From: Acetohalobium arabaticum DSM 5501
Lineage (GTDB): Bacteria; Bacillota; Halanaerobiia; Halobacteroidales; Acetohalobiaceae
Length of the DNA stretch: 64,000 nt
Assembly (NCBI RefSeq): GCF_000144695.1
Contig: NC_014378.1
Location: forward strand, 904,781 to 968,780
Direction: 5' to 3'
The notes beneath the pieces were generated by a model that ran no database searches, was not told the DNA's origin, and worked only from the letters and a program-made list of their open reading frames with translations. Of this stretch, positions 40,867 to 58,852 are shown one piece after another; position 1 is the stretch's first letter; each line of letters starts with the position of its first letter. Made by a program: the position numbers and the translations under genes.

Positions 40867-40960
40867 ATGAATAACGAATTAAATAAGTAAGAAATGCAGC
40901 AAAAGGAGTCTTTAAATGTTTAAAAGGATTTTATCATCTCACTTAAAGGAGGAGATTAAT

Positions 40961-42262
40961 ATGACAGAGATGAATATGTTCTGTAATCAATGTGAACAGA
41001 CACCATCTGGAGGATGTACGAAAGTAGGAGTCTGTGGTAAGAATGAAGATATTGCTAGCCTACAAGATACAGTTATCTATGGTTTAAAGGGAGTAGCTGC
41101 TTATGCTAATCATGCCCGAGAATTAGGCTATACTGATCCGGAAGTTAATGAAACTATCGAGCGGGGGCTGTACTCGACTTTAACCAATGTTAATTTTAAT
41201 TTGGAAGAAAATATCGAGATGGCGATGGAAGTAGGAGAAGCAACAGTTAAAGTTATGGATTTATTGGATGAGGCACATACAGATGAATTTGGCATTCCGG
41301 AACCTGTAGAGGTACCACAGAATCAGGCTGAAGGAAAGGCAATTTTAGTTACCGGCCATAATCTTCATGCTCTTAAAGAATTATTAGAACAGAGTGAGGG
41401 TAAGGGAATTAATATTTATACTCATTCGGAGATGTTACCGGCCCACGGCTATCCGGAATTAAATAAGTATGACCATCTAAAAGGAAATATCGGCGGTTCC
41501 TGGACTGATCAGCGGGAATTATTTGAGGAATTTCCCGGAGCAATTTTAGGAACTACTAACTGTGTAATGCCGATTAGAGGCGGCTATGCTGACCGATTCT
41601 TCTCTTATGATGTAACCGGTCTAGAAGATGTAACTAAGATTGAAGATGATGACTTCACGCCTGTAATTGAAAAGGCTTTAGACTTACCAGAGGCTAATAT
41701 GGAATCAGATGAAACATTAACAACCGGCTTCCACCATCAGAATGTTTTGGAATTAGCTCCGAATATTGTAGAAGCAGTTAAAGAGGGCAAGATCAGCCGC
41801 TTCTTTGTTATTGCCGGCTGTGACTCTCCAGGTTCAGGCAATGAATACTACCGTGAGTTAGCTAAATCTGTTCCAGAGGACTGTGTAATATTAACTACAG
41901 CCTGTGGAAAGTTTAGATTTAATGATCTAGATTATGGTACTGTGCCCGGGACTGAAATTCCTCGATTCATCGATTTAGGCCAGTGTAATAACTCAATTTC
42001 GGCAGTCAAGATTGCCTTGGCTCTAGCAGATGCCTTTGATTGTGAAGTTAATGAATTACCATTAAGCATTGTTCTATCCTGGTTTGAACAGAAAGCATGT
42101 GCAATTTTATTAGGACTCTTTAATTTAGGAATTCAGGATATCTATCTTGGTGCTACTCCGCCGGACTTCTTAACTGAAAATGTTGTAGGAGTTTTGCAGG
42201 ATAACTTTAACTTACAGCTAACAGGAGATTCCCAAGAGGATTTAGAAAAGATGTTAGGCTAA
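40961..42262 (+). CDS. hcp: Hybrid-cluster protein (hydroxylamine/NO reductase), short class
   Basis: Oxygen-sensitive Fe-S enzyme protecting anaerobes from nitric oxide and hydroxylamine. N-terminal 4Fe-4S cysteines are C8, C11, C19 and C25. The hybrid-cluster ligands are all recognisable in GHNLHALKE, THSEM, TTNCVMP, AGCDSPG, TACGKFRF, GQCNN and WFEQKA. At 433 residues it is about 110 shorter than the classic protein, lacking the extra N-terminal bundle, as in the short class III Hcps. ATG 40961 follows AAAGGAGGAG; the ATG at 40916 has no good SD. Confidence 0.93.
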   Translation: MTEMNMFCNQCEQTPSGGCTKVGVCGKNEDIASLQDTVIYGLKGVAAYANHARELGYTDPEVNETIERGLYSTLTNVNFNLEENIEMAMEVGEATVKVMDLLDEAHTDEFGIPEPVEVPQNQAEGKAILVTGHNLHALKELLEQSEGKGINIYTHSEMLPAHGYPELNKYDHLKGNIGGSWTDQRELFEEFPGAILGTTNCVMPIRGGYADRFFSYDVTGLEDVTKIEDDDFTPVIEKALDLPEANMESDETLTTGFHHQNVLELAPNIVEAVKEGKISRFFVIAGCDSPGSGNEYYRELAKSVPEDCVILTTACGKFRFNDLDYGTVPGTEIPRFIDLGQCNNSISAVKIALALADAFDCEVNELPLSIVLSWFEQKACAILLGLFNLGIQDIYLGATPPDFLTENVVGVLQDNFNLQLTGDSQEDLEKMLG

Positions 42263-42386: not shown

Positions 42387-43595
42387 TTATAATTTTGCTT
42401 CTTCTGGATTATTTTCTGGTTTTGATAGCCAGTTTTCACCGGCTAGTTTGATACCTGCCGCACCGAGCGGTGCAGTGATAATAATTGCCAAGACTGCCAT
42501 TGCCAGGATTAGCTCTCCTGACTCTACGCCTGCAGATAAAGGTACAGCACCGATGGCGGCCTGGACGGTAGCTTTAGGCGAGTAAGCAATTACACTAAAG
42601 ATTCGTTCCTTCCAGTTTAGCTCAGTTCCAGCAACTGAGATTAGGACTCCGGTTCCCCGGGCAATTAGTCCAATAAAGATAATTACAAGACCTATCAGCC
42701 CTGAATTAATTGCTAAATAGATATTCACCTCAGCTCCCACTAAAACAAATAACATTATTTCAGCAAAGACCCAGATCTTATTGAACTTAGAGGCCAATCT
42801 TTTGGCGACTAGATTATATCTTTCCTGCAGAATAAAGCCGATAGCCATTACTCCCAGCAGGGCTGCAATCGGAATTATATTTTTGAGAAGATCTTTTAAT
42901 CCGGTCAGAATTATGGCTGAACTGAGGATTAATAGGGCTTTTTTGGTATCCCGGATATGGTATTTTTTAAAGAGATAAAGGAGAATGAAGCCAGTAATAA
43001 TTCCTAGTAGTACTCCCATAAGAATTGAAATAGGGACATTTAATAACTTTTTAGCAATATTTAGCTGAGAACCTCCATAGAAGCCTAGAAAGGTGGAGAA
43101 GATAGTAATAGCAATTACATCATCTATCGAGGCTCCTGTCAGAATTAAAGTAGGAATTCCTTTATCTGCTCCTCGATTATTATCTATTAAATTTAACATC
43201 TGCGGAACTACAACTGCCGGAGAAACAGCAGCTATAATAAAGCCCAAGATTCCTCCTTCTATAAATGATAGCCCAAAAAGCTGCATAGATACAAATAATA
43301 CTGTAAAGCCTTCTAAGAAACTGGGGATAAAGCTCAATTTAACTGCTGGTACTCCTACTTTTTTTAGAGTTTCTTTTTCTATACCTAGACCTGCCCTTAA
43401 AAGAATTACAATTAAGGCAATCTTACGCAGATCAGGCGAGATAGTTAAGATTTCTTCACTGATTAGATTAAAGCCGTAAGGGCCGATTAAGATACCGAGG
43501 ATTAACATGCCTAATAGCCCCGGTAGTTTCATCTTCTTAAAGGCTCTATTAAAGATCAATCCTAATAAGATAATAACTGCAAGACTTAAAGCCAT
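42387..43595 (-). CDS. Na+(K+)/H+ antiporter, CPA/KefB-type
   Basis: Membrane cation:proton exchanger of 402 residues with about 12 hydrophobic helices. Family motifs are LPGLLGMLILGILIGP near the N-terminus, AAVSPAVVVPQML and GASIDDVIAITIFSTFLG, which contains the ion-binding Asp pair. The start is ATG 43595 with SD AAGGGAGGG. A longer frame to 43715 reads through a riboswitch and terminator and is not coding. The leader suggests control by Na+, fitting sodium export in a salt-exposed cell. Confidence 0.85.
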   Translation of the reverse strand: MALSLAVIILLGLIFNRAFKKMKLPGLLGMLILGILIGPYGFNLISEEILTISPDLRKIALIVILLRAGLGIEKETLKKVGVPAVKLSFIPSFLEGFTVLFVSMQLFGLSFIEGGILGFIIAAVSPAVVVPQMLNLIDNNRGADKGIPTLILTGASIDDVIAITIFSTFLGFYGGSQLNIAKKLLNVPISILMGVLLGIITGFILLYLFKKYHIRDTKKALLILSSAIILTGLKDLLKNIIPIAALLGVMAIGFILQERYNLVAKRLASKFNKIWVFAEIMLFVLVGAEVNIYLAINSGLIGLVIIFIGLIARGTGVLISVAGTELNWKERIFSVIAYSPKATVQAAIGAVPLSAGVESGELILAMAVLAIIITAPLGAAGIKLAGENWLSKPENNPEEAKL

Positions 43596-43628: not shown

Positions 43629-43714
43629 TAAAAAGCTCCTATTTAGGTTAAGAGAACCCAAATAGGAGCCATCAATTGCAAGAATGCAATAGTTAACGGC
43701 GAGCTCCATCACCA
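43629..43714 (-). promoter_or_regulatory. Candidate Na+-sensing riboswitch with intrinsic terminator
   Basis: Read on the minus strand: GGTGA-TGGAGC-TCGCC forms a hairpin (43698-43713 in plus coordinates). A second hairpin TTGCA/TGCAA follows, then GCTCC, which can pair with the GGAGC loop as a pseudoknot. The same GCTCC begins a strong terminator (43635-43669) ending in Ts. Ligand-stabilised aptamer would therefore block termination and turn the gene on. The conserved-looking GCCGTTAACT joint and the antiporter target suggest the Na+-I (DUF1646) class. That class assignment is from memory. Confidence 0.65.
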
Positions 43715-43745
43715 TAATATGTATTCACTTTATGTTACTTCTTTA

Positions 43746-43774
43746 AATATATCATAATTTTAAATCAGAGTCAA
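43746..43774 (-). promoter_or_regulatory. Sigma-A promoter of the riboswitch-antiporter unit
   Basis: Minus strand TTGACT (complement of 43769-43774), 17-base spacer, TATATT (complement of 43746-43751). It places the transcript start about 25-30 bases before the aptamer. Confidence 0.75.
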
Positions 43775-48237: not shown

Positions 48238-48287
48238 GAGGTATTGAGTAAAGTAAGTCTTTAAATTAAAATTCAATTACGAATTTA

Positions 48288-48526
48288 ACTACTATGATAG
48301 AGAAGAGTAGATAGATATAAATGTTACAGCGAGTCAGGGATGGTGAAAGCCTGATACCTACGATCTATTGAAGATCATCTCTTAGTAGTCGGCCTGAAGA
48401 ATCAGTAGGGTTGACCGGTAGCAGCCGTTATTTGTCTGGAGATAGGGATATTGAAGATCAGTATCTCTAACTAGGGTGGTACCGCAAGCTATGCCTTGCC
48501 CCTGATTGGGGTGAGGCTTTTTTTAT
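48288..48526 (+). promoter_or_regulatory. T-box leader (isoleucine) with terminator
   Basis: Stem I is closed by ACTACT (48288) with AGTAGT (48384-48389). The specifier loop GAAGATCATC carries an ATC (Ile) codon at 48374-48376. The T-box AGGGTGGTACCGC lies at 48473-48485. The intrinsic terminator GCCTTGCCCC/GGGGTGAGGC (48493-48517) has a T run. Uncharged tRNA-Ile should stabilise the antiterminator and induce ileS. The 357-base gap after mtnN is fully explained by promoter plus leader. Confidence 0.93.
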
Positions 48527-58023: not shown

Positions 58024-58693
<670 letters not shown>

Positions 58694-58716: not shown

Positions 58717-58820
58717 AACCCTTTTAAATTAGTCCTGTGAGGCTAGTAAGGGGTTTAAATGTAACTTCTATAGATAATTTAAACCTCCTTATGCCTGACA
58801 CGGCTGTAAGGAGGTTTTTT
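58717..58820 (+). promoter_or_regulatory. PyrR attenuator 2 (between pyrR and uraA)
   Basis: AACCCTTTTAAATTAGTCCT at 58717 opens a hairpin with loop TCCTGTGAGGC, closing at about 58755. The terminator AACCTCCTTA/TAAGGAGGTT (58782-58816) with a T run follows. It repeats the first attenuator's design. Confidence 0.87.
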
Positions 58821-58852
58821 CTATAGTAATTAAAAAAATTGGGGGTATAATA

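Follow-up and report, generated by a model that had tools for sequence, protein, structure and literature searches.

The leader of an antiporter gene in Acetohalobium arabaticum DSM 5501 is, by its sequence, a new member of a known RNA class, the fluoride riboswitch. It very probably works as an ON switch for an NHA-clade cation/proton exchanger that would be a main fluoride-tolerance determinant of this organism. As a member of the class the leader RNA would bind fluoride, and the antiporter gene would be induced by it. Both the class and its association with antiporters are already known; the RNA itself is an ordinary member, and antiporters under fluoride riboswitches have been counted before. 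More useful than the RNA is the pattern of exporter replacement across genomes. Across Halanaerobiia, and in many Clostridia too, a fluoride riboswitch stands mostly over one stand-alone NHA-clade antiporter, rarely or never accompanied by Fluc or a signature-complete CLC-F. With this pattern an old puzzle, the presence of antiporters under fluoride switches, can be put to a direct test. Does the gene alone confer resistance, and does it do so through H+ and Na+ or through F-?

The window, the whole stretch of 64,000 nucleotides analysed, was compared with all Rfam families, and RF01734 matched the leader over all 64 positions of the model (Table 1). The proposed mechanism has two states. Without fluoride, the GCTCC strand would form the 5' arm of an intrinsic terminator and transcription would stop. 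With Mg2+-bound fluoride in the cytoplasm, GGAGC in the P1 loop would pair with GCTCC, the terminator would be blocked and the antiporter gene would be transcribed. The product, a member of the NHA clade, would exchange Na+(Li+) for H+, probably electroneutrally, and would act as a main fluoride-tolerance gene, most likely by dealing with what HF entry does to protons and Na+.

Table 1. Elements of the riboswitch and antiporter locus (window coordinates)
Feature	Position	Strand	Basis
Promoter-like element TTGACT-17-TATATT, TG before second hexamer	43746..43774	-	Consensus scan 10/12; predicted function
Fluoride riboswitch aptamer RF01734	43656..43722	-	cmscan 40.9 bits (gathering cut-off 34), E 6.7e-8, model 1-64
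P1 hairpin GGTG (43713-43710)/CGCC (43701-43698), 8-nt loop	43698..43713	-	Sequence, Rfam alignment, homologues 78/78
Pseudoknot 5' strand GGAGC, inside P1 loop	43703..43707	-	Covariation with 43669-43665 in homologues
Second, variable aptamer stem	43675..43690	-	MFE fold, Rfam alignment
Pseudoknot 3' strand GCTCC, also terminator 5' arm	43665..43669	-	Covariation and terminator scan
Intrinsic terminator, 16-bp stem, 5-nt loop, T run	43629..43670	-	Terminator scan; stem 43670-43634, then TTTTT
NHA-clade (SLC9B2-like) cation/proton antiporter gene, 402 aa	42387..43595	-	PF00999; start conserved in relatives

The antiporter and its likely chemistry

A Na+/H+ antiporter had been named as the target in the preliminary description, and the protein is of that type (PF00999, E 9.2e-43). 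Its gene is apparently monocistronic, with GGGAGG 5' of the ATG at 43595. A longer open reading frame, extending to 43715, reads through the riboswitch and was rejected as an artefact. Among solved structures, NHA2 (SLC9B2) of bison and of human is closest by sequence (E 6e-47 and 2.5e-46), with NhaP a long way behind, and identity to NHA2 in the structural match is 31–33%. NHA2 is also the best match of an AlphaFold2 model (pLDDT 86; TM 0.85). The modelled protein starts at a core helix; an extra N-terminal helix (14 TM) has been described for mammalian NHA2.

NHA2 is electroneutral and has an NHA-specific Glu214-Arg431 pair, Lys459, Thr461 and the Asp277-Asp278 pair (PMC8850199). The corresponding residues of the window protein are E95 and R313, K341, T343, and D158 and D159, which are constant or almost constant among short-form homologues; over 34 homologues the one exception is a D159N. 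Because these ion-site residues of NHA2 are kept, electroneutral exchange of Na+ (or Li+) for H+ is the likely chemistry of the antiporter. Some relatives have a long form, extended at the C terminus by about 140 residues, in which Ser replaces D158 (S158) and D159 and K341 are kept. The long-form loci L118–L123 (in genomes G042, G034, G036, G022, G044 and G018) accordingly read SD for DD in the ion site, and the extra C-terminal domain is putatively of the universal-stress type, which it resembles.

Three further PF00999 proteins of the host genome score above the cut-off, all of them distant from the riboswitch-linked antiporter. The gene convergent with that of the antiporter (40916-42262, plus strand) was assigned by eye as hydroxylamine reductase (prismane)-like. 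Elsewhere, plasmid records such as NZ_CP101223.1 (L203) carry beside rmtB and IS26 a related antiporter (about 52% identity) that is truncated to its C-terminal half. Pieces of it recur on resistance plasmids of Klebsiella and E. coli, which number in the hundreds, apparently as a mobilised fragment.

Fluoride exporters and the role of the antiporter

Neither CrcB/Fluc nor CLC is present in the complete host genome (a single contig of 2,469,596 bp, 99.6% complete). An orthologue of the antiporter, defined by at least 39% identity where paralogues fall below 30%, is found in 33 of 61 related genomes, and in 31 of the 33 a riboswitch match lies upstream. The 31 include two matches below the cut-off (G003 and G012) and one locus where a dynamin-like gene intervenes between riboswitch and antiporter (G029). 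The two orthologues that lack a match are those of G023, with a remnant of P1 only, and G009, with nothing. Fluc is present in none of the 33 antiporter genomes and in 9 of the other 28 (Fisher P 4e-4; within families P 8e-4), counts of co-occurrence that shared ancestry inflates. Six families hold both Fluc genomes and antiporter genomes, and a congener of the host (G001) has Fluc and lacks the orthologue.

The exclusion extends beyond these relatives. Among 148 Clostridia there are 30 riboswitch loci, 17 of which lie directly before this antiporter, 7 before CrcB and 2 before a signature-complete CLC-F. Fluc occurs in 28 of the 148, a background rate of only 19%, and in none of the 17 with a riboswitch-linked antiporter (P 0.04). 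Across many other lineages, 3 of 50 antiporter genomes have Fluc (G061, G062 and G070).

Could the CLC proteins of the related genomes be hidden CLC-F exporters? None of the 45 CLC loci examined from them has GREGT/V, GEVTP or GNNLI/GMGLI, the CLC-F signatures (PMC11139923), and this explanation was rejected. Among the better-scoring CLC matches in 78 antiporter genomes no signature-complete CLC-F was found, with two positive controls detected. Three of these genomes have borderline CLC-F relatives that may transport fluoride: G158 and G145 (GREGA), and G075 (GNDLI, GREGA, 49% identity), whose CLC is the closest to CLC-F among antiporter genomes. G075 also has a tandem pair of antiporters (L140), of which only the second copy is preceded by a riboswitch match.

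The exclusion of Fluc, which apart from three exceptions holds in Clostridia and further phyla as well, means that the antiporter behaves like a third, stand-alone fluoride-resistance gene. It suggests that the antiporter, once switched on, stands in for the proteins that usually export fluoride. How it would do so is the weakest part of the explanation, because it is not obvious that pH homeostasis by itself would bring down fluoride in the cytoplasm. According to a review, Na+/H+ antiporters come next in frequency to exporters among the genes that fluoride riboswitches control, and they are linked there to pH homeostasis (PMC11139923). That link does not explain the replacement of Fluc, because more F- would be trapped if the internal pH rose. 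The exchanger could run in either direction, and it would either reduce fluoride entry or its cost through the balance of Na+ and H+, or move fluoride itself.

If the antiporter did export fluoride, for example by F-/H+ or F--coupled cation transport, it would form a third exporter family beside Fluc and CLC-F, and the riboswitch would be as described. The distribution of Fluc in all three genome sets fits such an exporter, including its absence beside the antiporter in families that have both, and so do the missing CLC-F signatures and the long forms, in which the DD pair lacks its first Asp and D159 and K341 are retained. Against it, the short form keeps every residue of an NHA2-type Na+/H+ exchanger, and Fluc accompanies the antiporter in the three exceptional genomes. 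We know of no anion transport documented for the NHA clade, and we regard fluoride export by the antiporter as improbable. The broader proposal, that this subfamily is a third, independent primary fluoride-resistance transporter replacing both Fluc and CLC-F and possibly moving fluoride itself, is tentative and on balance doubtful. We prefer a Na+/H+ exchanger that confers tolerance through the consequences of HF entry.

Structure and class of the leader

Between 43713 and 43634 of the minus strand lie all of the elements that the preliminary description had listed, namely a GGTG(A)/(T)CGCC hairpin, a GGAGC loop, a downstream GCTCC and a strong terminator overlapping it. GCTCC is common to the pseudoknot and the terminator, so that the two pairings are mutually exclusive. 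The folded leader has a minimum free energy of -35.9 kcal/mol compared with -17.7 +/- 3.1 in dinucleotide shuffles (z -5.9), and the terminator tail folds with -23.8 kcal/mol. One terminator was found in the stretch where 0.1 would be expected by chance. The promoter-like element is immediately upstream of the aptamer. The extent first given, 43629-43714, holds these elements and needs a small correction, as the aptamer match begins at 43722 and runs to 43656. Conserved nucleotides of the Rfam alignment are present, including the GAUGG loop and the UGAUG ahead of the pseudoknot strand, and the loop-to-3' pseudoknot of RF01734 is found as GGAGC/GCTCC.

The RF01734 search took in the 61 related genomes, together with 79 homologous loci drawn from a larger set of genomes. 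P1 is paired in all 78 homologous leaders, a few of which precede crcB or another gene and not this antiporter. The pseudoknot, which the RF01734 model leaves unpaired, is fully paired in 72 of the 78, whereas shuffling the partners between leaders gives 40 on average and 52 at most; leaders were chosen by a consensus-scoring model and the best-pairing position taken where there were several, so these counts lean somewhat towards pairing. Compensatory types are GGAGC/GCTCC, GGAGT/ACTCC, GAAGC/GCTTC and GGTGT/ACACC. In 61 of the 78 a terminator-like hairpin starts with the pseudoknot strand. Anatomy and comparison thus support a riboswitch with the ON logic first proposed, in which pseudoknot and terminator exclude each other.

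The association with the antiporter is a property of the subfamily and not of this organism. Of the 79 homologues, nearly all from other lineages, 49 have a riboswitch within 500 bp upstream. In a tree of 109 homologues the riboswitch-bearing antiporters occur on most branches and in most phyla; the riboswitch is missing here and there, and a few groups lack it entirely, such as a Lentisphaerota/Bacteroidota branch.

Might the leader be a fossil, an inherited aptamer structure whose switching has been lost in this genome? Decay of this kind is seen in the clade, where G009 has no trace of the switch and G023 (L098) retains upstream of its antiporter only the P1 remnant GGTGATGAAGCTGCACC, having lost the terminator and all other parts of the aptamer. 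We consider it very improbable here, where pseudoknot, terminator, T run, promoter-like site and ribosome-binding site are all intact. The decayed leader of G023 is itself a natural candidate for constitutive expression. Least credible of all is the ligand class first proposed, a Na+ riboswitch (Na+-I, DUF1646) or a variant of it, which would suit an antiporter target, a probable halophile and the terminator through which Na+-I switches likewise act (PMC9337991): the search with the Rfam DUF1646/Na+-I model that had been advised gave no match, no Na+ or Li+ model appeared even up to E 10 when the leader by itself was scanned permissively, and RF01734 matches from end to end. We therefore retain the fluoride riboswitch as the class of the leader.

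Other observations concern fluoride riboswitches and the window more generally. A second RF01734 match in the host genome (C1:2296050, 24.8 bits, below the cut-off) is antisense within a KpsF/KdsD-like sugar-phosphate isomerase gene and was taken as chance. Dynamin-like GTPase genes (PF00350) stand directly under fluoride riboswitches at L179:1099-2940, L173:2322-2975, L154:523-2433 (-), L029:3-1431 (-) and L226:2-1465 (-), in several cases between riboswitch and antiporter or divergent from the antiporter. Such loci occur in Halanaerobiia, Thermodesulfobacteriota/Deltaproteobacteria and Clostridia, and in G033 (L026) seemingly only a fragment of the gene is left. Among the papers searched, none mentions dynamin together with the fluoride riboswitch. 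At L216:1678-2814 (+), in a Clostridia genome with four riboswitch matches, a fluoride riboswitch precedes an octopine/opine-dehydrogenase-like gene (PF02317). The window also contains a T-box leader (48285-48506, plus strand, 123 bits) and two PyrR-binding-site leaders (58025-58118 and 58717-58824, plus strand), probably of a pyrimidine operon.

Comparison with known systems

The leader shares with the crcB motif (RF01734) its P1, second stem, loop pseudoknot, ON logic and overlapping terminator, the last of these already known for that motif (PMC2864571), in addition to a full-length match above the cut-off. It differs by no more than ordinary sequence variation, with GGAGC/GCTCC where the consensus is GGAGU/ACUCC. 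With the Na+-I riboswitch it has in common that an ion-sensing ON switch acts through a terminator, often near antiporter genes. The fold is different, and Na+-I, unlike this leader, is built of two extended stems, and the competitor of its terminator is P2 rather than a loop pseudoknot (PMC9337991).

In C. difficile the CD0656-7 operon also places an antiporter gene under a fluoride riboswitch (PMC11477304). There a CLC and an NhaP-type antiporter are encoded together, whereas here the antiporter stands alone in a genome without CLC or Fluc. The closest known relative of the protein is NHA2/SLC9B2, with which it shares the fold (TM up to 0.85), the DD pair and the equivalents of E214, R431, K459 and T461. 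Unlike NHA2 it is bacterial, known from its sequence and a model, has Tyr or Phe for W456 in the short form, and lies under a fluoride riboswitch. The genome pattern also ties a bacterial antiporter subfamily to the mammalian exchanger NHA2.
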